Shown here: piece by piece, positions 31,792 through 58,538 of the stretch
Layout of the letters: every line of letters starts with the position of its first letter
Numbering within the stretch: position 1 is the first letter of the stretch
The notes under the pieces: generated by a model
The model's input: the letters and a program-made list of their open reading frames with translations, nothing else
Database searches by the model: none
Told to the model about the DNA's origin: nothing
Source: Dryococelus australis
Lineage: Eukaryota; Arthropoda; Insecta; Phasmatodea; Phasmatidae
Direction of reading: 5' to 3'
Length of the DNA: 64,000 nt
Assembly: GCA_029891345.1 (NCBI GenBank)
Contig: CM056994.1
Location: 61,039,251-61,103,250, forward strand
Made by a program: the position numbers and the translations under genes

Positions 31792-31852
<61 letters not shown>

Positions 31853-33263: not shown

Positions 33264-33271
33264 ATATCTTC

Positions 33272-35110: not shown

Positions 35111-35372
35111 ACATTGTAATGGTGGGGCTGCAGATGGAAAGGATACTCTCTGAAATTCGTACTTACACTGAGAGAAAGAGGTTTGTTCGAGCCAACAGAG
35201 TACTAGTTTTTTGTATAGATATGGCCAAAAATATATTTAGTCGTCCTAAAAAAAATATCCTGTTGAGTAAACAAAACTTGAAAAGAAACACATTAAGCTT
35301 TGTTCATCTTACAAAATACACTCTTGAATAAACATACCCTCTACGTTTGACCAAAAAAATTTAAACTGTATT

Positions 35373-36560
35373 TGTATTATGAGGAGCATGGGACAATGGC
35401 TGCTGGCTGAGGATTCGAAGATTGTCTGCCAACTCGGTTGACATCTCGGCTCTCAAGACTTCGATGTTAAGAGCCGTCCAAATCTCTTCACTGGCTCAGT
35501 CGGTTGACGTCACAGCCGGTGTCGCGGCCAGTGGCCTGAGGGAAACCTCGTTATGGACAAAATGATCAGTTTTACCCAAAAATCTTTGAATGATTTTGCC
35601 AAAAAGTCACATTTGTCCCCCAAAATTTTCCAAATAATTGAAAAATATCCCGATCAAGTCCTCAAATGAATAAAGCGGATTTGAGGCTGCTCGGTGCGAG
35701 AACCAAAATGTCCTCAGAGCAGCAAGTGGATTCAGGGCTCCTAGAAGAATCAGTCACAAAGTTCTCGGAGCAGTAAAAGCAGATACAAAGCTCTGAGCCA
35801 GGTCCAGCGAATCAGACGGATCAGCAGTCATGGCTCCCTCGCCCAGCCAACATCCTGCACCCCTCACACAAGCTTCCCCCCTCCTCTCACCCTCAACCCC
35901 TTCCCCGACTACCCTAACTGCCCTACCCTACCAAATGTAAAAAATCGGGGAAAATATTATAAGTACTAAAAATTTTAAAATGAAGCATTTATATTAAACA
36001 ATTGTATAAGGATCTAAAAAAAATCCAGATAATGTTATTTAAATAATACATTTCCGAAAAAAAAATTCTTTAAATACTCACATGTAGTCTTTGTCACCAT
36101 TACTTCACCAACCTCAGGGCTCGACTCTCGTACAGACGGTGGAGCGCACAGCCCACTCCTGATAGGATAGTCAGCATGATGACTGATCCCACAAAATTCA
36201 TTGGCTCTTTAGTCGGTAAGCCTCCATCTCACCTCAATATTTCATTGTCTATATAGTCGGTCAATCTACCGACCCCCTGCCCCGATAAATTATAGGTTTT
36301 ACATAATTAATGATCCCGCCACTCACACCGATCAATTGTATCATCTGTTGACCACTAGATTGTGCTGTTAACCCATATTTTCAGTATTGGACACAAGAAT
36401 GTGCTGGTTATTCGTGTTTTAAACATCTACCACCAGAGAGCTCCCTTGTCGCCCATTTACAAACTTGTTAGAGAAACACAACCCCCCGAAACTTTGGGTA
36501 CATATAATTAATATATCCTGTTTGACTAATAATATTTAATTAAAATTTTTTTTTTAAGTT
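35373..36560 (+). repeat. Polinton-2 left terminal inverted repeat, about 1.2 kb
   Basis: Matches the reverse complement of 57310-58538 along its length; landmarks include GTATTATGAGGAG at the tip, TGGCTGAGGATTCG, GAGCCAGGTCCAG, AATCCAGATAATGTTATT, CTATATAGTCGGTCAATCTA and GTGCTGGTTATTCGTGTTTT. A SINE tail at 35440-35500 is an insertion absent from the other arm. Confidence 0.85.
35440..35500 (+). repeat. SINE tail inserted in Polinton-2 left terminus
   Basis: GCTCTCAAGACTTCGATGTT then AAGAGCCGTCCAAATCTCTT. Flanked by CGGTTGACATC (before) and CGGTTGACGTC (after), which look like a target duplication; the opposite arm has only one GGTTGACTTC. Confidence 0.7.
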
Positions 36561-37082
36561 TCATATAAATCAGGAAGCTTTCATAATTTAATTTTTCAAT
36601 AAATAAAAAACACAATTTTAAATATATTTATATTTGCAAAATTACACATATGTATAATTATTTCATTGCAATGTTTTTCGAAGGCAAGAGGACATAATAT
36701 CATATTGTAAGTGGATGGTATACATGTATCCTTAGCTGAAAATGATTTACCGAATCCAGTTTCCAACCAGAACTCTTAATCACCACTTCTTATTCCTCGT
36801 GGCATACCTTCTTTATGCTGTTTTTAACACTCTATTCAATGTCGTATGCATTATAGATACATACATTCGAGGTCTTGAATGCCTTTCTACATTGTTTGTA
36901 CTGGTATGGCTCTGGTTTCGGGTAGGTACATTCTAACCCTACATTAAAATTGAGAGACCCACTCTTTTCTATGTTGGTTTATTAAATTATTTTTATAGTC
37001 GGCAGAAATATGCAAACATCTTCTTGTATACCCAACGAATTCCTTGTGACACATATCTTTGGAATACCAAAAATTTACAACA
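36561..37082. other. Spacer between left terminus and satellite
   Basis: AT-rich, no gene or repeat recognised. Confidence 0.5.
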
Positions 37083-38975
37083 CAAGCCAACAAAAACCAA
37101 CAGAAATGTCAGTGGTTTCTGCTGTGTGGAATTCTTATTCTAATATATTTTTGGTGGTTTCTATTGTTTTCCATTGATGATCCAATAGCTTTTATTGGAT
37201 TCCAGTGGTTTCTGTTGGATATAAATATAGTGGACTAAGGAAATTTCAGTGGTTGCTGTTGGTTCCTGTTGTCAGAAAATTCTGTAACTATTGGTTTTAT
37301 TTGTTTTCTATTGGAGTACAACAATTTCAAGTGAATTAGGTTAGTTTCTGCTGTAAATTAATCTGTTGGTTTGTGTTGTATTCTGGTAGTTTCCATTGAC
37401 TTCTGTCTGTTGGTTTCTGTTATAGCATAGCCTGTTTGCTTCTGTTGTATTCTAGCGGTTACCACTGTTTTCTGTTGTGCTGTAGGCTAGTGTTTTCTGT
37501 AAGACTCAAGTGGTTTCTGTTGGTTTTTGTTGTGTTCCATTGGTTTCTGTTGTTCTGTAGTCTGTTTTGTTGTGTTCTAGTGGCTGCCACTGGTTTCTGT
37601 TCTGCTGTATTAGGTTGGTTTTTGTTGTATTCTAGTGGTTTCTGTTGTGTTTGGTTGATTTCTATTGTGATTTAGTCAGTTTCTGTAGTATTCTAGTGGT
37701 TTCTGTTGTGTTTCATTGGTGTCTATTGTGTACTGCAGCCATTTGGTTTATATTATTATAGTGGTTCCTATTGGTTTCTGTTGTCTTTTGTTGGTTCCTA
37801 TTGTGATGTATCGAGTTTGTTACTGTTGTATTCTAGTGGTTTTCATTGGCTACTGCTGTGTTGGTTTCTATTGTACTTTAGCCAATTAGTTTATGTTGTG
37901 TTCTAGTGGTGTCCAATGGTTTCTATTGTATTTTGTTTCTATTGTGATAACTCGAGTTAGTTTCTGTTGTATTATAGTGGTTTTAAATGTGCAGTGTTTG
38001 TTAATATTGCTGTATTTTCATTGTTTATGTTGTGTCTTATTGGTTTCTGTTGTGCTGCAGTGCTCTCAATTATTTTTCATAGTGTTCTGTTTATTGCTGT
38101 TGTTTTCTGTTGGTTCCTGTTTTGTTCTGTTAATTATTGTTGTGTTCTGTTGGTTCTTTTCCTTTTTTATTGTTTCTGTTGTGTTCTGTTGGTTCCTGTA
38201 GTGTTCTGTTAGTTCCTGTAGTGGTCTGTTGGTTCCTGTTGTGTTCTGTTGGTACCTATTCTGTTTTTTGTTCCTGCCATGTTCTGTTGGTTCCTGTTGT
38301 GTTCTGTTAGTTCCTGTTGTGTTTTGTTCATTTCTGCCTAGTTTTATTGGTGTCTGCTGTGCCATAGTGCTTTAGGTTCTATTGTATTCAGATGGTCTAA
38401 ATTGCACTATGTTGTTGTTTTCTTGTTTTATTGTGCTGTAGTCAGTTTGTAGTTTCTATTGGGTTATGTTGTGATATAGTATGATGTTTTCTGTTATATT
38501 CTAGTGTGTTTCATTGGGTCTTGGGTGTTCCATTGGTATCTGCTTTTTTGTTGTATAGTTGTGGATTCCATTGGTTTCTGTTGTGCCAGTTTTTTTATTA
38601 TTTTGTATTCTTATTGTTTTATTGAATTTATTGTGTTGTGTTAGTTTCTATTGTGCTGTTGGCAGTTGGTTTCGGTTGTATTTTAGTGGTTTCCATTGGT
38701 TTGTGTTGTACTATATTTTGTTAGCATCTATTGCATTCCTATTCTTTAAGTTGCTTTCTATTGTGTTTTGTTGGTTTCTATGATGCTGAATGTGTTGACT
38801 TTTGTTGCCTTTCCTTTGATATCAATTGTGTTAATATATCTTTTGTTGGTTTCTTTTGAATTTCCTGATTGCTTCATGGTCTTCTGTTGTATTCTGTTAG
38901 TTTTCATTATATTTCATAATGTTGGTTTCTGATAAAATTTATATTGTTTATTTTAGTTTCTGCCGTTTTTTGTGA
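37083..38975. repeat. Degenerate satellite, T/G-rich arm
   Basis: Almost entirely words such as GGTTTCTGTTGTGTTCT and CTAGTGGTTTCCATTGG, strongly diverged, unit 10-13 bases with no stable register. The strand is the reverse of 39010-40812. Open frames here are compositional (Phe, Leu, Val, Cys only). Confidence 0.9.
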
Positions 38976-39009
38976 TTTTCTGTTCTATTTATAGTGGTTT
39001 CCTGAATGC

Positions 39010-40812
39010 AATAAGATTCGACAGAAAGCAACAAAATACAACATAACCTAAAAAAAACTAATGTATATCACTAGGAATTCATTAGAAACCAACACAGTGA
39101 CATGAAAAAACAACACACAGCACAACAGAAACCAATACAAATTACTGGGACTACATCAGAACACAGAATAATGAAATGTTACAGAAACCAACAATGTGCA
39201 ACAGAAACCATTGGAAACCACTAGAAATACAACAGAAAACCAAAATATTCAAAAAAATTTATGTAGAGCACTAGGATTTTATTAGAAACCACCACAGTGA
39301 AATGAAAAAAAATAATACAACACAAGAGAAACCAATAGAAATTACTGGAACTACATCAGAACACAACATAATTAAATTCTACAGAAACCGACAATATGCA
39401 ACAGAAACCAATAGAAATCACAAGCAATAAACAGAAAACCCAAAATACATCAGAATACAACAGAATGAAATGCAACCGAGGCCAACAAATTGCAACAGAA
39501 TCCAAGGAAACCACTCGAAATACAACCAAAAACCACAAAACACAACACAGACCAATAAAAATTATTGGAACTATATTAGCATACAACATAATGAAAAGCG
39601 ACAGAAATCCACAAAATACAACAGAAACCACTATAAATACAACAAAATACCTCAAAATACTAAAACAAAACAATAGCAATTACTAGGACTACTTCAGAAT
39701 ATAGCAGAATGAAATGTGACAAAAACCAACAAAATATAACAGGAACTAATGGAAATCACTATAAATACAACAGAAAACCACAAAGCACACAAGAGCAATA
39801 GAAATTACTAAAATTACGTGAGAATACATCTAAATGAAATGCGACAGAACAATCTAAATACAAAATAATCCAATGGAAACCACTAAAAATACAACAGAAT
39901 AGCACAAAATACAACAGAAACCAATAGAATTTACTGGGAATACATAACAATACAATGAAATGAAATGCGACAGAAACCAACAAAATACAACATAAACCAA
40001 TGGAAACCACTAGAAATATAATAGAAAACCACAAAAAATATCAGAAAACAATAGAAATTACTAAGACTACTTGAGTATACAACATAGTGAAATACAATAG
40101 ACACCAACAAAGCAATGGAAACCACTATAAATTCAATAGAAAACCCCAAAACACATCAGAAACCAATATAAATTACTGGGACTACATAAGAATATGACAA
40201 TTAAATGCGACAGAAACCAACCAAAGCCAACAGAAACCAATGTAAACCACTAGAAATAGAACATAAAACCACAAAAAACATCAGACACCAATAGAAATTA
40301 CTGGGAATATATCAATACAAAATAATGAAATACGACAGTATCCAACAAAATAAAACAGAAACCAATAGAAATCACTAGAATTACAGTAGAAAAAACAACA
40401 AAAATCAATTGATATTACTAAGATTACGTCAGAATGCAACAGAATGAAATGCATCAAAGACCAACCCAATACAACAGGCACCAGTGGAAACCACTAGAAA
40501 TACCACAGAACATCACTAACACAACGTAAACCAATAAAATTACTGGGCTTTCATCAAGATACAACAGAATGATATGCAATAGAAACCAACAAAATACAAC
40601 ATAAACCAATGGAAATCACTATAATTACAACAGAAAACCACGAAAAACCACAGAAGTGAAATTGGAACAATAGAATGTCATCAGAAACCAACAGGGCGAA
40701 ATACAATAAAACATACATAACAGCAGAAATAAATGGAAAACACTGGTATTAAATAAGAATACAACAGAACGAAATGAAACCAACAAAGTACAACAAAAAC
40801 CAATGTGTGCTA
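39010..40812. repeat. Degenerate satellite, A/C-rich arm with 113-130 bp higher-order period
   Basis: Words CAACAGAAACCAAT, GGAAACCACTAGAAATAC and ACAGAAAACCACAAAA recur. A landmark like CAGAATGAAATGCGACAG recurs at about 39463, 39588, 39703, 39833, 39957, 40084, 40197, 40323, 40440 and 40567, intervals 113-130. This is the inverse of the previous arm, so the pair could fold into a long hairpin RNA. Confidence 0.88.
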
Positions 40813-41039
40813 CCAGTTATAAAACTCTCCACTTAAGTTCACTCTAAAAATGTATTTAAAGGGATAATTACCTGTATAAATTCTGTCCAGATAAATAAAA
40901 TCACTAACGATTCATGTTTTCTTTCAGGTATTAACAGTATTTGAATATTTTAATATTCTAACATAAATTACTTTCTGCACACATTTAAAAATGAAAATGC
41001 TACTACTTCAAAAACTAATTTTCAAACATTTTACATCAG
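40813..41039. other. AT-rich interruption in satellite
   Basis: About 230 bases without satellite words; a solo remnant of something else, not identified. Confidence 0.5.
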
Positions 41040-41312
41040 CTTAAGTCACAACACAACAGACACCTACAGAAATAATCAAAAACCAAAGAAAACCACTGGT
41101 AATACAATGGAAAACAACAAAGTTCTACAGAAACCAGTTTAAATCACTAGAATACTACAGAAAAATCAACTGGCTACAACACAATATAAGCCGAAAAACA
41201 CAACAGAAACCAATTGTCTACAGCACAATAGAAACAAAACAAAACACAACAGAAACCAATATGAAACAGTACAAAGCAACAAAAACCAACTGGGTTTATC
41301 ACAACAGAAACC
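41040..41312. repeat. Satellite, A/C-rich, second block
   Basis: Same words as the preceding arm (ACAGAAACCAATTGTCTACA, CAACAGAAACCAAT), with a local period near 45-60 containing CTGGCTACAACACA. Confidence 0.85.
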
Positions 41313-41599
41313 AATTGAAGCATGACAGCATCCAGGCCCTCCAGGCAAATTTGCCACACCATGTGCCCACCGCAACTCCAACCAGTACGTGCAATCTGCG
41401 CCATATAGTGAAGTGTAGGGTGTGTGTTAGGAGCAAGCCAGTGCAATGTTGTGCAAGCTGTGTGCCCCCCACTACCACAAGGGAAAGTGGGGGATATATT
41501 GAGTGACTCAATATACAGTTTTTGTAGGCCTAATTAAAATTCAATCATTTGTTGAAAATAAAAACCCATCACAAATGGGGACACAAAGTAGGCCCCTAC

Positions 41600-42600
41600 A
41601 TAAATTTTCATACTTTTATATTTTTGTTTACATTAGTGCATGTGTTATCAGCTCACATGTTTCACCCTCATTTGATGCCATATTAAATCAATTTTTATTA
41701 TGTGTTCATAAAGGTAATTGGATGTATTGGGTTTTATATGTTCATTGTTCATTACAAGTGTTATGTTTGTTTTCATTTTACAATCATTTTCTGGCACAGA
41801 AAGTAGTGACCGATAGGTCGCGTTCCACCAATCTGGAATCACACGGGCCCTCCGGGAACGAGTTGCAGCTGAGCACTCCAAGGGAATGGTGCATCGTGCA
41901 CGCTCCGAGTGGCCTTCAACTTTTCGTTATCACCAACCATGTAATTCGCAATTGACTTAGTTTATAGGAATCTCATGCATTTCTGTCACCTGGAGATACC
42001 ATCCCTTCCTTCCCAGTGCTTGCATCGTTTGGGGAAGTTTAACTTTTCTCATTAATTGTATTTTAGGCTTCGTGCCTTTTTACAGAGCAGCCATTCTGGC
42101 AAGCAACAACCAGAGACCATCTAATTTAACATTCGTGTGAGAATAATTCCATGATTGTTTGCCAACGATGCCTTTTATTTCAAGCACTGACTTCGGGCGT
42201 TTCTGGGCATGGGTCCCCTAGAACCCACTTCACGTAAATCTACATCCATCAGTCACTAATGGGTATAATCAATTAACAGTGTTCTCTTTTTAATATGTGT
42301 GGGTCAGCCTGGGTAGGCCCACAATACAATGCACATTAGTACTAGGTCTTCAAGTGAGAGGTATGCACCATCATTTCACTGGGGACTACATACGTCCGGG
42401 CATTCGGCCCGAAGCACCCTGGGATTAACCACATCAACAGCAGCAACGTTTCGGCACCGCCTGTCGATGATACTTGGTGCCTAGTCCGGTATTCCAATTC
42501 GCCAATTTTCCTTAATTATGTGTTTACCACCCCTCAAAAATCACCTTGGCTCGACCGAACATATGGCATAATTTCTACCCCCTTCCTATGACATTGACCA
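41600..42600 (+). repeat. Unnamed dispersed repeat, copy 1
   Basis: Shares ordered, diverged blocks with 51912-52770 and 61060-61790: AAGGTAA followed by TGTTCATTGTT; a CATCGTGCACGC..CTTTTCGTTATCACCAA block; CACCTGGAGATACCATCCCT; GTGCTTGCATCGTTTGGGGA; AGGCTTCGTGCCTTTTTACA; GTGTGGGTCAGCCTGG; and CGTCCGGGCATTCGGCCCG. It sits inside the satellite (41313-42600 is free of satellite words). Not identified. Confidence 0.65.
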
Positions 42601-43190
42601 CCATCACAATGGAAAACATTAGAATACAACAGGAACCAACTGGTCACAACACAATAGAAAACAAGAAAACACAACAGAAACCAATGTAAAATACTAGCAT
42701 ACAATAGAAACCAATTGGCTACAGCACACTAGAAACCAACAAAACAAAACCGAAACCAATGTAAAATCCTAAAATACAACAGACACCAACTGACAACACC
42801 ACAATTGAAACCAACAAAACACATCAGAAACCAAAAAGAAACAACTTGGACTACATCAGAATACAACAGAATGAAATGCAACAGACACCAACAAAATACA
42901 ACAGAAACCCATATAAACCTCTCGAATTCAACAGAAACAAACTGGCTCTGGCACAATAGAAATAAAAATTACACAACAGAAACCACCATAACATAATAAA
43001 AACCAATGGAAACTATTAGGTAACAATAAAAATAACAGACATCAACCCAACAGTACCCAACGGAAAGAGGCTAAATCCCACAGTATATACAACACAAGTT
43101 ACAACAGAAACCAAAAGCTTAGACCTAGAAACCAACTAACAAAAAATTTATGTTGTGTTTTCTGTTGGTTTCTGTTGCATATTTTTGGTA
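42600..43190. repeat. Satellite, A/C-rich, third block with terminal flip
   Basis: Satellite words resume at 42607 and run to about 43140, then flip to TTTCTGTTGGTTTCTGTTGC at 43160-43180. The array thus begins and ends with short stretches in the opposite orientation to their neighbours. Confidence 0.85.
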
Positions 43191-44995
43191 GTGTTATTTC
43201 AGCACAAACACATTAGCACTTGGTTTGCCTATAATATAGAGAGGTTGAGATGCTTGCTACATCCTGTAAAACAGGGCGATGCAAGAAACATCACGTATCA
43301 AAACTCAAAAACATAAGCCGTTCCAAACAAACCAGAAATTTTGAAGAGCAGTTTAAATGCAAAATATCTCTTTAAATTACAAAAACACACATTGTATGGG
43401 AAAAGCTTTCTAAATTCGAACATATTTTAAAATAATATTTTTTTAAATTCATGCAAAATACCAAAATACAAAAAACACTACTATTTTTAGACTGACTAGA
43501 ATTATACACGTTTCTACAATCCTCTAAAACCGCATATAAAATACACCTTGAGGATGAACACCATTTATAGATCTGACTCCAAACATTTCTTGCTTATTAA
43601 AACTCTAAAATGAGTACATTTTTGGCTATTCATTAAATAACATATTAAAATGTTTCACTACCTCAGTAATTCTCATATGGCTGAAATGAAAATAGAGTAA
43701 TAAAACAACCTTAATATATCCTTCATGATAGAGCATGAATATTTTGACTTTGGCATTCATTCTAAAGAATTTGTACTTTACTCAGCATGTGTTCAATAAA
43801 ACTCGTGAGATTTCTCTCAAATTCCCCTTTCAGTGTAACTGTGAAGTGTTCCCTATATTTTACAGTTTCTTTATACATAGCAATTTTATTTTATTCCAAG
43901 GTATGTGCAAAACTAGGAATACTGGGGTTTCCCTTGTTAATGCAGCTATATTTCATTTTCAAGAATTTTACATGACATATTTGACTGAAATTGCCAAGGC
44001 TGAGGCAAACATAAATTTTAAGCTAACAGCCCTTTATCACTAAAGGAAACTGTTCTACAGGTTCCATATTTTTTCTTTTGTAGTGAATAGCCATCCCAAA
44101 TCATGTCTGTGCCTATCAGATAAATACTTCTGTCTACATGGGCAACAAGACAGTCCATTTCTACATTTACCTGGCCTGATAGGCCCTACATACATTTGAG
44201 GTTTTACTTAACTTGTGACGATCTGAATCCCAGCAGCCGAGTCTCTGAAGACCAGTCAGCTGCAGCGTTAATTTATAGTACATTTGGCAGGGGAAACACC
44301 CTACTACTTTCGGAACAAACTATCTTTTTTTTTATTCATACCTACCACCTCCACATCCCACCTCCTTCTTTTCAACCCTCTGCGACTCCCTCTCGCCTTA
44401 CCCCTCCATCCACTCTCTGTTCCCAGCACCCCTTTTATCCAACTCACTGCACATTTCAACTTGAAATTGTGTGTACATTCCCAGGTCCATCTGTGTAAAA
44501 CCCTGCAGGTTTCGATTTCCCAGGTCCATCTGTGTAAAACCTTGCAGGTTTCGACCTGCATCAGTATTAGCTCAGTACATAAATAGGTCATGTAACATTT
44601 ATTTAAGAAATTGGGATTATTTCAAATGTTTCATTAAGAAAAATGCTAGTCTAATGATTAGGGGTAAGAAAAAAACAAATACATGGTTTTACACACACAA
44701 CTTCTGGTACAGATAGATACATGAATGCCATTACACAAAAATAAATCAATCGCAGTTCATTATTTTTAAAAATATGATCTTCTAAACATACCTTGACGTG
44801 ACCATTTCTAGTTATAGACCATCGATATCTGGTCCAAGGACAAGGCACACTATTTTTGCAGCAGCTGTACATTCCTCAATACACATGTCTAATCAGGTTC
44901 TGACATTTCACAGATGTGTCGCTCCTGGTCGTCGTAAGGTTTTTGTCAACTTGTGCAGCAAAGGACAGACATAATATAACTAAACGTCAATGATT
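43191..44995. other. Spacer within Polinton-2, with a 38-bp tandem duplication
   Basis: No gene supported. Two copies of TCCCAGGTCCATCTGTGTAA followed by AACC(C/T)TGCAGGTTTCGA lie at 44479-44516 and 44517-44553. Open frames at 43735-44043 and 44196-44498 have no family signal. Confidence 0.5.
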
Positions 44996-45010
44996 TCTTT
45001 TTCATCTTTG

Positions 45011-45313
45011 CTAAAGTCGCTCAGACATTTTTTTCTCCTCGAGTCCCACCACATAAATAGGTATTTGCAGGTACTGCATTTTCAAGTCGCGTAGCACATT
45101 CCCCACTTTATCGTCTGGAATATTTTCTTCATCCCACTCAACCAGTCGTTTATTTTGTGCTCTTCTCGTCCAAGAGTTTCCACGAATAAAGGGGGCGGAA
45201 GGAGTGCATGCATGTTTTCCCATCGTGGTCGTAGCACACTGCGATCTCTTTGAGCACAAAGCCACTCTGGCTCTAGAAGCCATGCAGATTACAGTACATA
45301 TTATGCTGTCCAT
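45011..45313 (-). pseudogene. TE-associated ORF of unknown function
   Basis: One minus frame is open for 100 codons and ends LKMQYLQIPIYVVGLEEKKM then SERL. A second frame upstream gives GFVLKEIAVCYDHDGKTCMH then SFRPLYSWKLL. Joined by order, GF.LKE...D......F.P...W.LL ... IYV.GLEKK..L.R is a pattern I associate with a short, unnamed protein family seen repeatedly next to insect mobile elements. No catalytic residues are assigned. Possibly part of Polinton-2 cargo. Confidence 0.3.
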
Positions 45314-45399
45314 ACTCTAAGACGACTAAACATATATTGTGAATGACCCATACTGTTTATATCCACCGCAGCACTCACCAAAGTACCTTCACGGCTTTG

Positions 45400-45761
45400 T
45401 CTTGACAATTGTACGATGCGAGCCAGTTGTGAATTATTAGGCAGAAAGCATACATGTGAGCAGGAACTCTTCCATGTATCTGCATTACTCGAACTTCAGC
45501 ATCGTTCCGACGGAATCTGGTTTTGTAAAGTCGATATCTTCGTTGCATCTGATGACATTGTTCAGAGTGATGTGTGCCAGCATCAATGCTCCCGAGACCG
45601 TTTACCTGCAGCGCACCACTACATCGCCACAGCAAGCATCCACACTCCGCAATGTTTTGTCCCACAGTGCCACGGTGCAATAGTGCGACGTGTGTAGTGT
45701 AGTGAAATGTAGTGTAGCCAAGTGTAGCAAATAGCACATGGGGAGCCCAGAAAGGGTTCAT
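45400..45761 (-). pseudogene. Penton-like minor capsid fragment (Polinton-2)
   Basis: On the minus strand LAHITLNNVIRCNEDIDFTK then PDSVGTMLKFE, a stop, and CCGGYK a little further. The segment N..I.C...IDFT.PDSIG.LLGFE followed by P.GYK is the hallmark of PX-type minor capsid proteins in insect Polintons. Other frames over the same bases are longer but lack family signal. Short match, so tentative; it would be the counterpart of 22500-23102 in Polinton-1. Confidence 0.45.
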
Positions 45762-45862
45762 TGGCTCATGCCGTCTAACCCCTAAGCAAAGGGAACTGCG
45801 AGAGATGCTCCTACTAGTTTTTATTCCATAGTATTTTGTTTATGTAAATGTTTATTGCAAGG

Positions 45863-46065
45863 TGTTTTGCAATTCATACAAAAACTTTGCTGGACAACCA
45901 ACGATAGAGTTCGTCACTAGGAAACTTACCCCGACACCACCTTGAGTTCCACTGATCTTCAGAGGGTGGCATGCACTACTTCCAAGACCAAGTATTCATG
46001 CGCCCAATCACAGAGTCGACTGACACTTATGTACATAAATGTTTATTTACATAGAATACTGTCCA
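45863..46065 (-). repeat. BEL 3' LTR
   Basis: Ends TGTTTTGCAATTC (complement, ...GAATTGCAAAACA) and matches 51710-51911 across CTTTGCTGGACAACCAAC, GATCTTCAGAGGGTGGC and AAATGTTTATTTACA, with roughly 15-20 percent divergence by eye. Confidence 0.85.
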
Positions 46066-46129
46066 TTACCGCCCACTGAGACCAGCCGAGGTCTCCAAGA
46101 ATTTAGTCACAATGCACATTCACTATGGA

Positions 46130-49100
46130 CAGTAAATTACAACTGGTGATAAGACACTACTGAACTGGCAAACAGTACAGCTTATGTACAGGTTTGCACA
46201 GATGTCCCTTCTGCCTACATAAATCCACCACTCGAATAATGTCATCCTTTCCAGGGTGGAGTTTGACGACCCTTGATAAGCACCAGCCCAGGGGTGAAAC
46301 ATGCTCTTCTCCAACCAGAACTAGCTCTCCCACAGGGAGTTGTAGTTGCTGGATTGGCTACTTACCTCGGGGTTGTAGTTGCTGGAAGTATTCTTTATAC
46401 CAGTGTATCCAGAACTGGTTGGCTATTCCGCATATCAGTTTTAATCTTCTGGACAAACATATATGGCCATCATCAATCTCTTTGTAAGACTGGGGCACAG
46501 CAACAAGAGGCATACCGATGAGGAAATTCCCGGGTGTGCGTGCTACCATGTCACATGGATCAGAAGAGACAGGCGTTAGGGGCAGTGAATTTAGGACATC
46601 CTCAACTCGAGTGGTGAGTGTCATCAGTTCCTCGAGTGTCAGAACTTGATTGCAGATTGTACACCTGAAATGACAATTGGCTGATTTAACTGCCACTTCC
46701 TAAATCCTCCCCGAGGAGGAGCTGCAGGAGGCAGGAAATGAAAACTGATTTCATGAGGCAAAAAAAAGTTTTCCTGTAGCGGGGATTTGAGCAACTGCTT
46801 ACAAGACTGATGAAGTTGCCTTGAAGCACCAATAAAGTTGGTGCCACAATCGGAATACAGACTAGTACATAAACCTTGTCTTGACACAAATCGAGTAAGA
46901 GCAGTAATGAAGCTATCTGCAGCCAGATCGATGTGGATAGCTTTCATGCAAAACATATATGAAGATAGATAGGTATGCCTCCTATGCCTCCTGGGTAGCA
47001 CAACGACACAGCTTATTAATTAGAATGGAGATCGGTCAAACATACTCCACTCCAGTCGCACAAAATCTCCAGCAGGTGTGACTCGTTCAGTGTGTATGTC
47101 AGCAATTAGTGAAGTACTGTTCGCAGGCCAGCACCGGAAGCAACATATGCATTTGAAGACCCTAGGCTGTATCAAGGATCAAGCTGACAAAATCCAAAAT
47201 TGTTGAGACACAAGAGATTGCAGTAGTTGCGGTGGAGCATGTAGGTACTTTAAGTGATGATAGTCTAACTAAATGTCAACAGCAGTATGGTCTTTTGGCA
47301 ATATGATAGGATGTTTTGTGACATACTCAACATTTGAATTTGACAAACTCCCGCCCACCCTGATCACACCCTGCTTATCCAAAAACTGTGTCAAATTCTG
47401 CGATAGCATGGAACAAGATTTTCCCCCTTTTGAATTGTTTCAAGACATCTTCGAAACATGATGTTTGAATACATCTACACACTATGGAAGTTGCTTGTGA
47501 TGATAGGATTTTACTGCTAGGAGGTTGCCTCTGGCAGTGTTTCACAAAACGCATAACATAGGTCATGACTCGAACAAGTTTTGACCAAGACAAGAATTTC
47601 TGAAAGCATAGAAGCTCTTCAGGAGGATTATGTGTGCTCAAAAGAACCAACTGGGATGACTTTAGTTCTGGGATATCTGAAGTCTCATTCACTAGTCATA
47701 GTGGCCACTAGTCAGGTGGGTCCATTAACCATTCAGGGTCATGCCACCAGAGGGCATGATAACTTAGTTCGTGGGGAAGCAGACCACGAGAAGCACAATC
47801 TGCAGTATTGTCTCTAGAAACAACATGTTTCCAACACTGAGGTGGAACCTATTCCTGGATTCGAGAAACTCTATTTGCGACAAAGGTTTTTAACAGGTAG
47901 GGCTGAGTTTTGATCCAGGTGAGAGCTACCCTAGAGTAAGTCCATGCATGACTGGCAGTGACTGTTAAATGTTGGGCGAGGTAGGCATGACAATTGTGCA
48001 TCAATTTTGCCAACAAATGAGCACCACACAGATCAAGTCAAGAAAGTGAAACTTTTTTTAGTGGAGCTTCCGAGATTTGGCCAATATGAGATGTATGCAA
48101 AAATTCCCATGAGCATCTCTACATCTCGAATACACGACAGCTGCATAGGCTCAATCATATGCATCTGCAAAGCTATGTACCTCTACACAAGCTGCATCAG
48201 GACAAACAAAACATGGCATACCAACCCATTCCTTGGGTCCACAACCACTGCAGCAAAATTTTTACCCACACTACTGCTGGAGACAACAAACCCATGGGGT
48301 CATAAATACTAGCTATCTGTGACAAAACAAAATGTTTGGTCGGAACACCATTGCAGATATTTAAATAGCAAAAGGAAACATCAGTTGTTGGACTCCACTG
48401 AAGTTCCAAAATATTCACTACAAACTCAGATAAGAAGTTAAGTACTTTGGGATTATCACGATTTGGTAGAGGAATGCCATCCAACAATTGAGGGTGGTTA
48501 CTTGGCCATTTTATAAGTTGAAATCTACCCATTTGTAAGAATTCAATCAACTGATCCTTTAGAACAAATGCTTCCTCCACCAATGAAGCACCAGTTACAA
48601 TGACATCTACAAAATGTGATTCTGTAGAGCATTTTGTGCCAGGGGATAATGGAGACCCTCATCAATGGCCAACTGGTGCAAGGTACGAATCGCCAGAAAT
48701 TGAGATGGTGTGAGTTCATAGGTTACAGTATTAAGATGGAACACTGCAAGTGAGAGATAGGGGTCTTCACACCACAGAATAAGTTGATATGGTTGGTCAT
48801 CCTCATGGATTAGAATCCGAAGATACATTTGCTTTATGTTGCAAGAAAAAACAACATTATAGAGCCTGAACAGTATTATGACATCGCATATCTCATTTTG
48901 AAGCTTGGGTCCAGAGAGAAGAGTATCATTTAGGGATACACCATTTGAAGTCCTAGCACTACAATAAAAAACCACCCTCAATTTAGTGGTTGAACTAAAC
49001 ATTTTGTACACACCAGTGTGTGGGATAAAATATTCAGAGGTTTCTCGTCTTTCCACCTGTTGGGTGGATTTTGACATAGGGTTCCATATGACCCGAAGTA

Positions 49101-51011
49101 GCATAATCAGCCATGAAGTCTTTGTACATTGCTTTCATATCAGGTTGAGAAGCGAGTTTGCACTCCAGAACTTAAAATCTGTTTTCAGCATTTACATATG
49201 AATTTCCGATACTCTTGAATGGGAGGCGAACTTTGTATCTATCCAATTCATCTCGAGAGTGAGTGGCCATGAAGTGGGTCTCACAGAAGTCAGCATCAGG
49301 TTGTTTTGCAACTACACGAGGGTGTTCCTCAATTTCCCAAAACTGTTTGAGAATTGAGTTTATTGAGTTTTCAGTCCCCATAAACATGGAAATCAGCTCT
49401 TGATCAGAGTTGGCTTTCAGTTTTCTCCAAGGAGCATCCATCAGAATTTAGACTCCAGCACAACAGGCATGTGCTGACCTAGTTCAAGTCGCCCACTCAT
49501 ACAAACTTGTGCATTGATTCAGCACCCAGCAACATGTCAATGGGACCAGGTTTGCCGAACTGAGGATCAGCTAATGGAAGAGACCCCAATTGGGTATGAC
49601 TACATGGATCTACAGTTGCTCATGATAGGTTGCTGGTGATTTTAGAGACCATGAAAAGAGAGTGAGTGAAGGAACATTTAGATATAAAAGAGGATGGGAT
49701 TTTAGAACTGACAGCTCCTTTTAAGTTGGCTATACCATGTACGAAATCACAGACCCTTTCCTTGACCTTTTGAACAGGTAAAGACAAGACATTTGCAGCT
49801 GCATCTGTCATGAATGAGGCCTGAGCTGCACTGTCCAGTAAGCAGTGAATCACGTTGAGTTTACTGTCAGCATCGTACACAGTTACCAGGGCAGTAGATT
49901 ACAACACTGAAGTACAACTACGAGCTGAAGAGACATCAACAAATGGTTCAGTCTCAACATCAGCATTTAAAGTGTAATTTTCAACATGTGTCACTGGATT
50001 AGGCCTAGACTGACCATCAACACGAAGTTGAGTATGATAACTCTGTTCGAAAACATGTATTGGCTGAGGAACATGATGCTACAGTATACGCTGTTCCCAG
50101 GCACTTGAAGCATAGTTTCTTGCTGTGAGCTATTGACTGTCTTTCTGAGGATGAGTCATTAACAAATTCGGAACATTTATACACTGAATGAGTGGTCTGC
50201 TGACAAACAATACAGAATTTTAACTGATAGGGCTCAGAATTAGTTATAAATACTGATTTGGGTGGTTGTATTACATGAGTTATTCTTTGAGAGTTGGTCT
50301 TCTGGGATACTTGACTGGTGCTTGTTTTTAATCTTATATCAATGGAATAGTCCATAGTAGAGACCCTTGCAAACAGAAACTCTACAAGTTCTGAAACCTA
50401 AGGCATATCACCAGTCCACTCTGCATGCGAACTTTCAAACAGAGTGCGTAGTTCTATGCCCAACTTTCTCATCAAGACTGTGACAAGAACATGATTTTCC
50501 TCAGTTACATTACAGCCTAATCCCTTGAGGGGTTGTGCATTTTCATTGAATGTGCTGATGAAATACCTGATGGATTTGTGATTTGTGTTGTTGACAGAAT
50601 ACAAATCGAATATTCTTTTTATGTACAATGTTGTCAGCTTTCTCAGATTTAGGTACTGCAATGTAAGAAGTTCCCATGCCACAGGATAGTTGTCAGAAGA
50701 AATTGGGAGATTTTGTTTTACCAAATTAAAGCTTCTCCTGTGAAGCATCCAATTAAATATCGAAACTTTTCAACATCAGCCAGGCAACGATTGTTGTGAA
50801 TGGTGGCCTGATACAACTGCGAAAACATAGGCCAGTCTTCCCAATGACCAGAAAAATTAGGCAAATATGTCTTGGGACACCTTATATTTGCAGATAGACT
50901 GCCAACAAGTGGAGTTGATTCACTATGAACAACATGCCTACCCAAAAACGAAGCCGCGATATCACGAGTGTCCGACACTAAAATAAACAACTCATTATGT
51001 TTAAAGGTCAA
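46130..51011 (-). pseudogene. BEL/Pao gag-pol polyprotein, broken
   Basis: In order on the minus strand: gag YLPNFSGHWEDWPMFSQLYQ and DVEKFRYLIGCFTGEAL (51011-50718), NYPVAWELLTLQYLN (50748-50398); zinc knuckles FCIVCQQTTHSVYKC and LCFKCLGTAYTVASC (50355-50017); aspartic protease CLLDSAAQASFMT, where the catalytic DSG has become DSA (49880-49620); linker RYKVRLPFKSIGN (49441-49172); reverse transcriptase STTKLRVVFYCSARTSNGVS, LNDTLLSGP, CNIKQMYLRILIHEDDQ (49104-48607); KWPSNHPQLLDGIPL and SIYDPMGLLSPAVVW (48583-48197); RNase H with PPQCWKHVVSRDNTADCASR (around 47800); integrase MKAIHIDLAADSFITALTRF, YSDCGTNFIGASRQL (47001-46639), then LNSLPLTPVSSDP and TPGNFLIGMPL (46696-46358), and VVKLHPGKDDIIRVVD near the end. 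The YVDD motif is not readable. Many stops; inactive. Confidence 0.9.
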
Positions 51012-51709
51012 AATATTTTCATCAAAGTCTCCTGAAGTGGGTCCGACTGCAGTGAGATATTACATACTGAATTTACAGTACTGTCAATTGTCTCAAGTTG
51101 TACGCCAAACATGTTTACTTCATGCACAATTTCCACATTAATAAGTGGAGCACTTGCTAATGACTGTATATACTAGCTGACGTGCAGTAATTTTGTTTCC
51201 TGAAGTTTCAGTAAAAATGCCTTGAAACCCATATTGAAATATCACTACAATGAAGCAAGCGATAAACGGTACAGAGAAGACAAAGCTGTAACCTATTGTG
51301 TCGCAGCACAAGTGAGGTTATGCACATCTGGTTAGGCAGAAAAAAAGGAATATCCGAGGAAAGAGAAAAACTATTATGTTGAAAACACTACTTGGACATA
51401 CCCTGGCTAATTGAAAGACACACGAAGCAACAAACCCAACTGAGAAGAGAAAATTGATAAATTACTCACCAACATGGCGAAATAACATGCGACTGAGTGG
51501 ATCCCTCGTAAATGGTGAAATGAGGGCAGATATCTTGTTTCTTCCCAGGATGCCTGAACAGAGAGTTTTTTCTGCGGTAGCATCGGTACTTGATTTACGA
51601 GCGCAGGAGATTCCAATTACGTAACACATACAATCGAGTGACGAAATAGCAATATGCAATCGCTGATCGGTATCACATGTGAAACTATCCGACCCTGGAG
51701 GACCAAAAA
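51012..51709. other. BEL 5' untranslated region and gag start
   Basis: Between the 5' LTR and the first readable gag motif. TTTTTGGTCCTCCAGGGTCG (minus strand) follows the LTR and may hold the primer site. The first part of gag is not readable. Confidence 0.5.
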
Positions 51710-51911
51710 TGTTCTGCAATTCTTACATAAACTTTGCTGGACAACCAACAGTAGAGAGATCGTCACTATGAAACCTTCCCGACGCCATCTTAGGTTTTAC
51801 TGATCTTCAGGGGGTGGCGTGCACTACTTCCAGGACTGAGTATCCATGCGCCGAATCACTGAGTCCACTGATACATGCACACAAATGTTTATTTACAAAG
51901 AATACTGAAAA
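51710..51911 (-). repeat. BEL 5' LTR
   Basis: Minus-strand start TTTTCAGTATTC; TG ends would put the border 2 bases further out (51913), overlapping the CAAGG duplication. Matches 45863-46065. Confidence 0.85.
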
Positions 51912-52770
51912 CAAGGTAAGTACTTCATTCCACGTGTTCATCCTAATTTAATTTTTCATAATTATGAAAGGGTCGTGTTTATGTTTTAATTGAGGCAGAG
52001 TGTTTTATTATGTATTAATTTTGCAGGTGTTTCGTGTTTTTATGTGATTTAATGTAAGTGGGGCAAAACATAGTCCTCGTGTACTGCGCTAACCCGCCAA
52101 GCTGACAGTGCATGCCCCACGGAGGTATTCAGTAGTCAACAAGTACTCACAGGGGTCGATTCATGTCGGTGTCAGCACACACCAGGCGGCATTCATCTTT
52201 TGTCTTACCAATCATTTAACATCGCAATAGTAATAACGCATTGGAACTTTGTTTATTTAGCCACCTAGAGACACTAACCCTACTTCCCCCATGCTTGCAT
52301 CGCCTGGGGAAGTCCAAAACTGTGTATGTAAGAGTTTATTGGCTTTGCACCTTTTTGCAGTATCATCCATGTCGGCGGGCTAAGCCTGTCAACCAAGTGT
52401 AAAGTGTCTCTTCAGAGAAGAGTGTGATGTTTAACTGCTTGTAAAGGCTACGTCTGGTAAGAAACCAGGTGTTTTTATTTAGTGCAGAGCCTTTGGGTAT
52501 GTCAGAGAATGGGACAGTTAAAAGCCAGCAAAATATTTCATCACCTTTATTCAGCGCCATTGTGAACGTAACCACCCCAGTAATTCAAGCAATCAGTATT
52601 AGGCATGTGGGTCAGCCTTTAACAGGCTCACTGTTTAGGAAACCAGGTAATTATTCTATGTGAGGAGTACTAAATCAACACAGGAAAGTTACATCCGAGC
52701 GTACAGCCCACATGATCTCTGCTTAATTTTCCTAATGCATCGCTTTTGTACACTGACACCACGAACTGGG
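51912..52770 (+). repeat. Unnamed dispersed repeat, copy 2 (right half)
   Basis: Continues from about 45780-45862 across the BEL insertion. It shares CACCTAGAGACACTAACCCT, ATGCTTGCATCGCCTGGGGA, GGCTTTGCACCTTTTTGCA, CATGTGGGTCAGCC and TACATCCGAGCGTACAGCCC blocks with copy 1. A 70-codon minus frame at 52363-52575 (WFLTRRSLYKQLNITLFSEE) is open but unassigned. Confidence 0.65.
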
Positions 52771-53335
52771 TATGGCCTTAGGTAGAGGCCTTGGCCATTA
52801 TTTCACCATGGTGATAGCTTCGATATTTCACTGGGTCTTTCGGCCTCGGGTAGCTGCTTCTGTTCGATGCTGTGTTGACAGCTTGGCTTTGAGTATGACC
52901 CCTTGTTCTCAGAGTGCAAGCAAAAGCAAATACAAAAATCTGCCAGTAGTATATGCTTTCTAGGCCTTGCATTCCTTTTTTCGCTTTTGCCATTCTTTTT
53001 GTTTTACTTGTGCCATCCTCTTGCTTTTTGCACCCTTGTCTTTTTTCACCTTGGACTCCAAAATGTCGAAAATGCCCCATGCTCCAATCTTATAGAAGTC
53101 CGGTGTCTGGTGCCAGATGTATTTAGTCAACCCTTTGCACGCATATCTTATCTGCCTGGTACTGTTCTTGTACATCCTTGTTCAGGAAGTAAGCGATGCT
53201 GTGTTCCTTACACACCTCTCCCAGTGCATTGATGCACATGCTGCCATGCTAGTCTTTTAGCTATCTTTTTTCCTGTCCCTAATAACTTGTATCCGGGAAT
53301 GTGCAGCTCAAATGATAGATTGTTGATCATTGTAT
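52765..53335 (-). pseudogene. PLA2 and minor-capsid protein of Polinton-2
   Basis: On the minus strand: FELHIPGYKLLGTGKKIAKR (the calcium-loop region, with the usual YCGPG changed to LLGTG), then LGEVCKEHSIAYFLNKDVQ and QYQADKIC. The catalytic His remains but its partner Asp is Ser (EHSIAY for EHDIAY). A lysine-rich linker follows (KSKRMAQVKQKEWQKRKK), and at the far end GQGLYLRPYPVRG, the glycine-tyrosine-leucine-lysine/arginine-proline-tyrosine tail of Polinton pVI/pX-like minor capsid proteins. So here PLA2 and the minor-capsid module look like one gene. The Polinton-1 copy has the two split by a microsatellite. Broken by stops and not catalytic. Confidence 0.65.
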
Positions 53336-53393
53336 TTGCGATCCCACTTCCAGCTACAGTCTTACTTCTGAGAGACATTATCATTTCTGTATC

Positions 53394-54110
53394 ATGGAGA
53401 TTGTCAAGCAGGGTGTTGGTATTCCCTTACAAATTAGTGCGAAAGATGCCGAAGTCTCCAGTGGCTCTCATCACTTCGAGCTTTTTCCTGGTACCATGAG
53501 TTGTATCATTGTGGTACCATCCAATTACAGTAAGACATGTTTACTGTTGAGTTTAATGGAGGATCCAAAAAGCCTTTAGGTTTAAAATGTATACCTGTAC
53601 TTGAAATATCCCCAGCAACCAAACAACCAGTGTCTGGCATATGTATTGCAGGCAATAGATGGTGTGGGTTATTTCCCATGCTTTGGAAATGAAGCAGCCT
53701 GGCCTCCGAGCAAAGCGCTGCCAAACTCGGTGTTCGTCTTCGATGGCATAGCATGCAAGAAACAGAAGTGTATTGAGGAGTACTTTAGCATGTGAAGGCA
53801 TGCGAATATGGGCAGTGTGTACCTTGGTCAAACATATTTGTGCATACCCAAAAAACTGCTTCATAACAATGTGAATGTTTTGGTGCTGTTTCGCATGGAC
53901 AATGTGAATTGGTTAAATGTGTTATGATGACAACATAAATATGGACATGACATTAGATTTTATGTGTGCCTTGCTGGAACTACAAATATAGATTTTGGGG
54001 ATCATAAATGACAGGCCTCAATACAGTCTCTCACGTGATCATTGTGACAAACTTCTAGAGGCAATAGCTATTGTAATGAGGAACAACTTTTACCAGAGAA
54101 CTGATGTCCA
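53394..54110 (+). pseudogene. Polinton-2 packaging ATPase
   Basis: Starts at ATG 53394. SHHFELFPGTMSCIIVVPSN leads to the P-loop position, read here as VPSNYSKTCLLLSLM (G lost, K-T kept). Then FGNEAAWPPSKALPNSVFVF followed by DGIAC (Walker B, second Asp changed to Gly), KCIEEYFSM, RHANMGSVYLGQTYLCIPKK, and NNVNVLVLFRMDNVNW. After stops, NINMDMTLDFMCA and CWNYKY. Same family as 21720-22390 but only distantly alike, so the two Polintons are different lineages. One stop near 53577 and one near 53793 interrupt it. Confidence 0.8.
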
Positions 54111-54309
54111 GTGACGCCCCATTTAGATGCTAGACATATTTGTATGACATGTTATGATGTCCGGCAGGTTGGCAGTTAGTGTTGCTCACAACAACACCAG
54201 CATTCTACCTCCCAGGAAACAGTGGTGTTTCATGTAGTACTTGAGGGATGTTGGAAATAATAAATAGGTAGATGTTTGCAGGTTGCAGAACTTTACTGAC
54301 TACCTATTT

Positions 54310-55200
54310 AACATTTAGATATGTAAACCTAAACAAGGTGCACAAAATGGTGGCGTTCGGCTTGATTACAGATGTCGCAATGCCAATACATTGCCTAGCC
54401 GACCATCTCGCAAGTGCAAAGAGTGGTTGAAACCGTGTTGCATGCCACCTGTATTCATTATATGAGAACTTAGCAATGCTCCACAGGGGTAGAATACACA
54501 CAACTCATGATTTGGCCTCACAGAAAGAAATCGACTGGCATGAAGTCAGGTGACAGTGGTGGCCATAGCATGTGGTCGCCTCTCTTAATCAACTTATCAC
54601 CACATATGTCGCTGAATTATTGGCGAACACAATGACTGAAATGGGTGGGACACAATCATGTTGAAACCACATGTTGATTTGTGGGCTCAGCTGTAGAACT
54701 TCTAGCAGCTGGGATAGCTCATTTGCCAGAAAAATTATATGCCTGGCCATCTAAACAGGCTGGAAGGATAAAGAGGGACCAATAACTTTTTCGTGGACGA
54801 TGCCAGCCCACACATTCATTGCAAACTGTTGTTGGTGATGTGTGGCCATTACTGCACGTGGATTTTCTTCAGCCAACATGTGGCTGTTGTGGGTGTTTCC
54901 ACATTGAGGTGTGGCTGACCATATTGTGAACGATCGCCCATGGGCTTGTGGATGGGTTCGCCTCAACTCTGTCCAGTACATTTTCTTAAAATGTGGCATA
55001 AGACCACCTCTTGCACTGGCAGCCTTCATGTGGTGAATGGAAGGTCTCATACTCATGCAGTCGCTGATGTAGTCGCTGGAACAGTGTGTGATTGGCAGCC
55101 GTCTGTTCGGGAAGTGTTCCTTATAAAGATGTGCTGCTATTCACCCATATCCTCTAGTTCCACCATACAGCATATACATATTCGCCAGTTCTGATAATGA
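54310..55200 (-). pseudogene. Tc1/mariner-like (ITm) DDE transposase, broken
   Basis: On the minus strand: an N-terminal segment like GGTRGYG...YKEHFPNRRLP (helix-turn-helix region), THNSHMLAEENPRAVMATHH and QFAMNVWAGIVHEKVIGPSL (open 101 codons, 55056-54751), MWFQHDCVPP where HDGAP is usual (second Asp kept), LIKRGDHMLWPPLSPDFMPV and DFFL (third catalytic Asp), then HHFVHLV near the end. The order fits the arthropod family with WAGI, QHDGAPxH and PxRSPDLxPLDFFLWG blocks. Inverted termini were not found. Confidence 0.75.
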
Positions 55201-56261
55201 CTAAGCATCCATGACTAGTGTGGTGTATGAAGGCAGTTACGGTGAGCACACAACTCTTTCAGCTCATACAGCAAGAACAATGCAGGTCGGTGTAGCGGAA
55301 TGTGGTGGGGGAAGAACGCAATGAACTGCACACAGCACATGCAGTCCAATGTTGCTTTCAGTCTTTTGATAATGCCTATCTTTCCGGGACAGAAGCCTAC
55401 CTCTTTTGGACAGAGGTGAGGCTCTGTAACCTGTCCTCGCATTCACTAGCTTCAGATTACAGCAGGCATGTGAAAACGAGTGACCGCAGAATGCCTACCT
55501 CCCAGGCACATGGAACTATTTTCCAACGATGCCTGGCATCTCAATGGAGCTTCAATGGACATCCACTCTCAGAGAAAAGTTGTTCCCCATTACATTATCT
55601 ATCGCCCCTAGAATAAGTTTGTTGCAATGATCTTGTGACAATATGTATAACAGCAGGTACCGACATTGTTTCGATCAGTTCCTCATCGACCATCAAGAAT
55701 GAGTTACAATACATCGAAATTCGATCAGAGTAGCCACAAGCTGCATCTTGACAGAAGCAAAGATGTGGCGTACGAAACACCTCTTGCCCTGTCTCATACC
55801 AAGAAACAATGATACTTGTGATGCTGGTAGAAGCATAATTCGGAATGTTGGCAAACCTGAACGATCTGAAAATGCTGCCACTGAACATTTTGCTCTCGAA
55901 ATCGGTAATGGCATTATCTCGGAACCTCAAATAGTGTTGTCTAAACAAAACCAATTCTTTGAACTTACTTGTCTGAACTTGGAGCGAAGATGGATCACAT
56001 AAAGACAGAAATAGTTAGCAAATTGTGATAGTCATAGACATGCATGTGGCGAGTGTTCAAATGCAAATTACCGACAGACTGAATGTGCAATCAGCAAAAA
56101 ACGAAAAGTCTCTAAAAGGGCTGAAAGATTAAATAGAGCATACATTCACTACTACGACTACTGGTCGCTTTGCAAAGGGTCAGAAATTACTCGCACACCA
56201 ACTATAATATTTACATTTTTGAAGAACCAAAGGCATGAGGCTACATATGATAATTCGGTTG
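55201..56261. other. Polinton-2 unassigned region upstream of integrase
   Basis: Contains long open frames on both strands (for example 55595-55954 minus and 55302-55616 plus) with no family signal. IKNELQYIEIRSE in a plus frame near 55690 could be capsid-related but is too short to call. The last part may hold the integrase N terminus. Confidence 0.4.
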
Positions 56262-57115
56262 GGACTTGCCTATGAACTGCATGCAGGCGCAACATGCAAC
56301 TCCATCATCACAAGGTCTGGTTTTTGGGATGAACGACCTGTTTCAAGCCAACCTTGTCAACATGACACTGTACACTCGAGTCAACAAGGGCTACAAATGC
56401 ATGTTGAGAGTCATCGGCGCACATAGCAAATTCGCCCAGGCCAGACCGGTCTAGTCGAAAAATGTATGCAATGTCACAGAGGCCATGATGGATGTATTTA
56501 GCGAAAGCCGCACCTCAACTAATCTGATAACCGACCAGAGCAAGAAATTCTACAATGTGAAACTGATGAAGAAATATAACATAAACCATTAGTCTACCTA
56601 CAGAAATCTCAAAACATCTATCGTCGAGAGTTTCAACAGCACTCTGAAGGACAAGATGTGGAGGCATTACGTTGCGATAGCAACTACAGGTGTTTGGAGT
56701 TAATGCCGAAACTCGTGTGCATGTACAATTCTACCACTCATTCTATCATTCGCATCAAGCCTGAAGACGCCAAGGACGACTCGCTGCTTCGAATAGTGTA
56801 CTCCGGCCCGAAGAGGGAGGAACAACGCAAGCCTAAATCCAAGGTCAGTGACCTGGTTCACATCTCTATATATAAAGGCATCTTCGAGAAAATGTTTACA
56901 GTCAATTAAGATTCCCAAACTCTTTTGTTTGCGACATGTATGAAACTACACACAGAGGACCCACTATTTCGAAGATCTGATCAACACACCCATTCATGGT
57001 AGTTTCTACACCGAGGAAATCCAGCCGACGAAGATTCCTGTTGTGTATTTGGTCTAGAAGATGCTGAAACGATGTAACAGAAGTGCGTATATCAAGTGGT
57101 GAGGATTGTCTGCCT
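56262..57115 (+). pseudogene. Polinton-2 integrase with chromodomain
   Basis: GMNDLFQANLVNMTLYTRVN has Asn where the first catalytic Asp belongs (QADLV). Then KGYKCMLRVIGAHSKFAQAR, NLITDQSKKFYNVKLMKKYN (second Asp), STYRNLKTSIVESFNSTLKD with KMW (Glu helix), YNSTTHSIIRIKPEDA, KSKVSDLVHISIYKGIFEKM, DLINTPIHGSFYTEEIQPTK, and the chromodomain trace VVYLV.KMLKRCNRSAYIKW. Sequence differs strongly from the integrase at 19780-20696 yet the architecture is the same. It ends about 195 bases before the right terminal repeat, a common Polinton arrangement. Confidence 0.85.
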
Positions 57116-57309
57116 GCTATAGTTGTTGGATCACTGTAGCAGACATTGAGAGGTGAACTCACCATGGAAGAGGACTATATAAATATGTAACTTTTATTCA
57201 GTGGATTATTTGTTTACCCATTTTGCTGTAAGGGATTTTTTAAATTAAACTAATATCAAATACATGTTTTAATTATTTTAAAAAAACCTCTTGTGGAAAA
57301 ATAACTGCT

Positions 57310-58538
57310 TTTTGCAAGATTGAATCTAAAAAAAAATCAAATTAAATAATATCACCAAAATAGGAGATATTAATTATATCCAACAAGTTTGAGGGCTTCA
57401 TTATCAAAAGTTTTGCAAGTGAATGACATTGGAGTTCTCTGGTGATAGATGCTAAAACATGAATAACCAGCACACTCTCATGTCTAATACTGACACAATC
57501 TTGTTATTATTCAACACACATTATGATTGATTGATGTGGGTGGAGGGATTGTTTGTTATGTAAAATCTATGATTAATTGGTGCGGGAGCAGCGGTCAGTA
57601 GATTGACCGATTATATAGGCAATGAAATATAGAGGTGAGGTGGAGGCTCTCCGAGTAAAGAGCAAATAAAAATTGGTGGGCGTCAGTCGTCTGCTGGTCA
57701 CCATGTTGAGAGGAGGTTGTGTGCTTCACCATTTGTACATGAGTCGAGCGCTGAAGTGGGTGAAGTGATAGCAACAAACACTAAATGTAAGTTTTTAACA
57801 ATAATTTTTTAACAAATTTAATATTTCAATAATGTTATCTGGATTTCTTTCAATGTCTATTCAATTGTTTTATATAAATGCATACTTTCAATTCTGTAAG
57901 AACATTTAATATTTTCCCTGAATTTTTCACAATTGGTAGGGTGGGGTGTTATTGGGAGTAAGGGCTGGGGATTGAGAGGGGAGAGTTGAGTGAGTGAATG
58001 AAGAGATTTGGGATGCTCTTAACATCGAGGGCTTGAAAGCCAATGAGGGTGATTGAAGTGAGTATGGAGCAGTGCTGGAATGAAGGGGTGTGGGTAACAG
58101 GAGATCCCTGAGAAAACATGTAGACCAGGGGAGGGTTGAGGGGTGATGGTTATGAGGGGGTGCAGGGTGATGTTTGGGGGAGGAGGCTATGTCTGCTGAT
58201 CTGCTTGATCCACTGGACCTGGCTCAAAACCTCTAGTTAGGTTTTCCTGCTCTGAGGATTATGTGATTCATTCAGCTTGCTGCTCTGAGGATTTTTTGTC
58301 TCTCGCATCAATATGCCTCGACTCTGCTTTGCCCATTAGACGACTTAATCAGGACATTGTCCATTTTTTTTAATTTGTGGGTAAAAGTAGATTTTTTGGC
58401 AAAATCATTAATATCTTAAGTGTTTTTTGAGTAAAATTGGTCATTTTGTTTCTAATATAGCCGTCCAGACTGTGAAGTCAACCTAGTTGGGAACGAATCC
58501 TCAGCCAGTTGCTGTAGTACCAAACTCCCCATAATACT
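57310..58538 (-). repeat. Polinton-2 right terminal inverted repeat
   Basis: Reverse complement of 35373-36560. Contains an extra SINE (57983-58128) that the left arm lacks. Tip reads AGTATTATGGGGAG on the minus strand; AG is the usual first dinucleotide of Polinton termini. Confidence 0.85.
57983..58128 (-). repeat. SINE body inserted in Polinton-2 right terminus
   Basis: Minus strand: CATGTTTTCTCAGGGATCTC, CATTCCAGCACTGCTCCATA, CAATCACCCTCATTGGC, TTAAGAGCATCCCAAATCTC. No tRNA-like head. Confidence 0.78.

Follow-up and report, generated by a model that had tools for sequence, protein, structure and literature searches.

Within the 64 kb window (the whole stretch of DNA that was analysed), a pair of Polinton-type long terminal inverted repeats encloses three gene remnants: a chromodomain-bearing integrase of retroviral type belonging to the Polinton family, an ATPase-like gene and a PLA2-type gene (Table 1). 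Between the two arms also lie a tandem-repeat tract, a BEL/Pao retrotransposon and an inverted-repeat DNA transposon. The locus, referred to here as the relic, shares the window with a neighbouring Polinton.

Table 1. Features of the relic and of the neighbouring Polinton (positions in the window).
Feature	Position	Strand	Evidence or remark
Neighbouring Polinton	14557-28760		Arms 14557-14892/28427-28760, 84%
Left terminal inverted repeat	35367-36560	+	blastn and local alignment; outer end TGTATTTGTATTATG
Tandem-repeat tract, 10/20-bp based units	37300-43000		Later; two opposite orientations
Nested BEL/Pao LTR retrotransposon, decayed	45863-51907	-	LTR pair and Pfam; ends approximate
PLA2-type (capsid-like protein) gene remnant	53126-53426	-	Two overlapping pieces, two frames
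ATPase-like gene piece	53682-53921	+	35% identity to neighbouring Polinton gene; one in-frame stop in matched part
Nested inverted-repeat DNA transposon	54031-55638	-	Arms about 144 bp, 79%
Integrase remnant (rve type) with C-terminal chromodomain	56254-57147	+	Profile search and match to neighbouring Polinton
Right terminal inverted repeat	57310-58544	-	blastn and local alignment; outer end (reverse complement) AGTAGTAGTATTATG

The initial annotation had described inverted arms of about 1.2 kb, and these were found within a few bases of the limits it gave, with outer limits at 35367/8 and 58543/4. The pairwise alignment that it proposed as a check was run, and the arms match: in their main part, 35557-36608 aligns locally with 58449-57267 at 80% identity over 978 ungapped columns, with a score of 566. 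As a control, stretches of 1.3-1.4 kb from the window were paired at random 200 times; in 17 pairs the two lay less than 3 kb apart, and these were dropped. Among the 183 that were scored, the best value, 397, belongs to the neighbouring Polinton's own arm pair, and the next is 95. By blastn, the arms match in three segments: 35884-36553 against 57985-57328 (72.7% counting gaps, E 2.8e-96), 35557-35883 against 58449-58138 (68.4%) and, on the far side of the left arm's insert, the outermost 35368-35417 against 58543-58494 (78%).

One short interspersed-repeat insert is present in each arm, at about 35446-35502 on the left and about 57977-58131 on the right. The left insert is flanked on both sides by copies of CGGTTGAC, and the repeat recurs in the window at about 170-287, 12301-12417 and 29983-30120. 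At E up to 1e-3, all other matches of the arms within the 64 kb window, one of them 26 exact bases long, fall within the two inserts. SINEs had been claimed for the locus, and the inserts themselves stand, one per arm, but SINE-like is a loose descriptive label; no tRNA was detected.

The right terminus of the relic, AGTAGTAGT, fits the Maverick end motif 5'-(AGT)2//(ACT)2-3', which is the commonest among vertebrate Mavericks (PMC8097293, available in part). The left terminus is a decayed (AGT)n, now TGTATTTGT, and the conserved motif is thus found on one side, the right. In the inward direction, the outermost bases on the right (58544 to 58530) and on the left (35367-35381) agree at 12/15 positions. 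Intact vertebrate Mavericks are described as having inverted repeats of 46-1447 bp and 6-bp target duplications (PMC8097293, available in part). No clear 6-bp duplication is present at the motif-based ends of the relic, where the flanks, TTAAAC and ATTGAC, are alike at 3/6; among 16 symmetric end choices, flank agreement is at most 5/6, and this best case lies in an A/T run, 6 bp beyond the motif.

The integrase remnant stops about 160 bp short of the right arm and consists of five stop-to-stop pieces in two frames, separated by stops. Of 734 candidates from a single-frame search with 55954-57100, one was retained: an integrase of 354 aa carrying the Pfam domain rve (PF00665; E 5.2e-6). A profile was then made from 30 of 120 listed relatives of this protein (which has 2311 in all) and run against the window's stop-to-stop pieces. 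Five pieces at 56254-57054 (+), in order, cover profile positions 58-306 with E from 8.5e-8 to 0.3. The same profile also picks out the integrase of the neighbouring Polinton, and comparison with that element lengthens the match as far as 57147, taking in the chromodomain. The reversed window, searched with the profile, gave nothing at E up to 1, and the top piece scores 29.1 bits against at most 4.6 bits in 20 shuffles. A Gypsy integrase at 30505-31176 scores just 6.7 bits (E 0.54) with it. This integrase lies in a decayed Gypsy-type retrotransposon at 30502-34600 (-), which retains RNase H, reverse transcriptase and integrase pieces. A direct Pfam scan of the frames of the integrase remnant gave no rve match. 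The conserved Asp/Asp/Glu residues of the integrase core are catalytic; the remnant has kept the second Asp and the Glu, but Asn stands in place of the first Asp.

Over 80 aa, the ATPase-like piece corresponds to 21869-22108 (-) of the neighbouring Polinton (E 4.8e-9). Its score is 55.8 bits; the highest value among 30 shuffles was 33.1, and the two flanks gave 34.7 and 33.9. The gene probably reaches from about 53500 to 54030. Both the piece and its counterpart are taken by us to be putative ATPases from their motifs; a Pfam scan of the two matched no model.

The PLA2-type remnant was recognised through an ORF of the neighbouring Polinton, 17480-17827, which is itself a Pfam Phospholip_A2_4 protein (E 3.5e-12). 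One piece matches this ORF by blastp at 43% over 35 aa (E 5e-5) and the second by phmmer (E 8.5e-4). At 19.5 and 15.6 bits, the pieces compare with a best of 10.4 bits in 60 shuffles and with 7.3 bits for the next-best piece of 28761-64000. With whole X-masked frames, the match has E 0.02, and the matches at 40136-40495 (E 0.004) and 62910-63155 (E 0.02) to the neighbour's frames were discounted as chance or low-complexity. The PLA2-type match stands out piece by piece only; in the whole-frame comparison it is no better than those chance matches. A direct Pfam scan of the remnant gave no match. Insect Mavericks with PLA2-bearing capsid-like proteins have been described (PMC5803895, available in part), and the PLA2 domain is named in a figure legend of PMC3671162 (available in part).

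Four Polinton-type gene remnants had been proposed from the sequence. Three of these are the genes described above, and the fourth was absent both from the Pfam scans and from the comparison with the neighbour. Six-frame Pfam scans of 36500-57998, which are weak on worn genes, gave no DNA polymerase B, major or minor capsid protein or adenovirus-type protease, nor did polymerase, capsid or protease remnants emerge when the region was set against every frame of the neighbouring Polinton. The Pfam result is weak evidence of absence, since the same scans also missed the integrase, ATPase-like and PLA2-type pieces, and loss of the polymerase by decay is indistinguishable from true absence. Two fourth-gene candidates from the comparison with the neighbour's frames, 44279-44461 (E 0.005) and 53992-54111 (E 0.044), were rejected as chance or low-complexity matches.

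Searches in wider collections were also made. Ten pieces, seven from the relic and three from the neighbour, gave only two weak matches in PHROGs (E 0.067 and 0.3), both to families whose function is unknown. A protein search aimed at the capsid and started from the neighbouring Polinton retained none of the 1363 candidates scored. Among viral contigs, the integrase alignment led to a single locus, which was read as a Gypsy-like pol gene and set aside. The ATPase-like piece led to two loci, matched over 33 aa only and read as phage DNA; when the ORFs of these loci were compared with the neighbouring Polinton, none matched at E 0.01, and the left arm of the relic gave a single low-complexity match (E 0.018). 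Viral contigs searched with the PLA2 piece and with a polymerase piece gave none, nor did phage records searched for the integrase. A Gypsy-like integrase piece at 59083-59517 (+), just outside the right arm, matches the Gypsy-like pol from the viral-contig search.

The initial annotation had spoken of a 23 kb Polinton. The distance between the arm ends bears out the figure, but it measures today's span rather than the length of the element itself. Most of the 23.2 kb is later material: the repeat tract (5.7 kb), the BEL element (6 kb) and the inverted-repeat transposon (1.6 kb). Roughly 9-10 kb could be Polinton, and the remainder at about 43.0-45.9, 51.9-53.0 and 55.6-56.2 kb has no recognised content. 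The 6 kb satellite seen earlier is confirmed as the tandem-repeat tract at about 37.3-43.0 kb, in which the units at about 37.5-38.3 kb run opposite to those at 39.0-43.0 kb, with weak inverted pairs as the result. The nested BEL retrotransposon is likewise established, by an LTR pair (45863-46061/51710-51907, 83.6% identical or 86.7% ungapped) and by Pfam matches to Peptidase_A17, DUF1759 and DUF5641. What had been called a Tc1/mariner relic is an inverted-repeat transposon, but Pfam and PDB sequence searches neither confirmed nor excluded the family; its ORF at 54751-55140 may resemble Tc1/mariner.

The relic had been called older than its neighbour, and the divergence of the arms agrees. 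Kimura distances of the relic's arm segments are 0.232, 0.257 and 0.253 (the third value from 70 columns), compared with 0.148 for the LTRs of the nested BEL element and 0.164 for the neighbouring Polinton's arms. Since its arm divergence (0.23-0.26) exceeds both that of the neighbour (0.16) and that of the nested LTRs (0.15), the greater age of the relic is supported, and a BEL element younger than the arms is what the nesting demands. The arms of the inverted-repeat transposon are at a distance of 0.242, a value that is not comparable because arms of this kind may already differ when the element inserts.

The neighbouring Polinton has Pfam matches to Phospholip_A2_4 and adenovirus protease and a sub-threshold match to DNA_pol_B_2, with an integrase and chromodomain at about 19.8-20.7 kb. 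To its left, at 12659-14558, are arrays of 38-bp repeats with a 1.2 kb direct duplication (77%). The two Polintons share a related integrase with chromodomain, an ATPase-like gene and a PLA2-type gene. However, protein identity in the matched stretches is just 25-47%, in line with the earlier statement that the relic's genes are only distantly like those of its neighbour. The neighbour's arms are shorter (about 0.33 kb), less diverged and without match to those of the relic; no (AGT)n end was seen in them by eye, and the gene order differs.

With vertebrate Polinton/Maverick elements as described in the available part of PMC8097293, the relic has in common the inverted repeats, the (AGT)n end motif, the integrase, a putative ATPase and a decayed state that is usual among copies; coding capacity has been lost in 96% of the 3,511 vertebrate Maverick loci reported there. 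It differs from them in that a target duplication is not visible, the integrase faces outward, and polymerase, major capsid protein and protease were undetected. Sf Maverick 1 and 2 (PMC5803895, available in part), likened to the relic by description only, also have an integrase with a chromodomain and a PLA2-type protein, as well as an ATPase, to which the relic's ATPase-like piece would correspond, but unlike the relic they have a recognised polymerase.

The relic is very probably a Polinton/Maverick that was inserted long ago and is now dead, worn and overlain by later insertions. The end motif, the Polinton-family integrase beside the right arm and the ATPase-like and PLA2-type pieces between the arms all support the Polinton reading already made in the initial annotation. 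The relic is filed under Polintons because of its ends and integrase, and not for a full gene set. An element with inverted repeats of about 1 kb and (AGT)n ends would have been inserted by its own integrase and later fallen silent, after which its genes would have gathered stops and frameshifts. The DNA polymerase, major capsid and protease genes may have been lost or worn past recognition. Short interspersed repeats, the BEL retrotransposon, the inverted-repeat transposon and the expansion of the tandem repeats would then have been added on top. We infer that arms and genes arrived as one element; a way of life based on integrase and protein-primed polymerase is presumed by analogy with the known family.

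An unlikely alternative to a single insertion is a composite of at least two Polintons, in which the PLA2/ATPase block and the integrase with the right arm came from separate copies and were joined by later rearrangement. The strands would suit such an origin: the PLA2-type remnant is on the minus strand, the ATPase-like piece on the plus strand and the integrase on the plus strand towards the end, an arrangement that is unlike both the neighbouring Polinton and the usual two inward-facing modules (PMC8097293, available in part). A transposon and DNA without recognised content also separate the blocks. However, all the pieces lie within one matching pair of ends, and other module orientations have been described for Mavericks in the same source. 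It is very unlikely that the arms are an independent repeat family or foldback element that by chance flanks Polinton gene debris of other origin: no target duplication is demonstrable and much of the interior is without recognised content, but the right end has the Maverick (AGT)n motif, the integrase lies close inside one arm and the 64 kb window holds no gene-free copy of an arm.

As a dead Polinton, the relic is an ordinary sort of genomic fossil, though one that is easily missed, and it leaves the understanding of how Polintons work unchanged. The case shows that elements of this class are recoverable from raw sequence even where most of the span is later material. The presence of both elements suggests that at least two Polintons, only distantly related to each other, have entered the genome. 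We tentatively propose that the relic may represent a separate lineage, with (AGT)n arms of about 1.2 kb, an outward-facing terminal integrase and a PLA2-type capsid-like gene, and with no direct relationship to the younger Polinton, which lies 6.6 kb away. If so, two independent invasions would be recorded in one neighbourhood.
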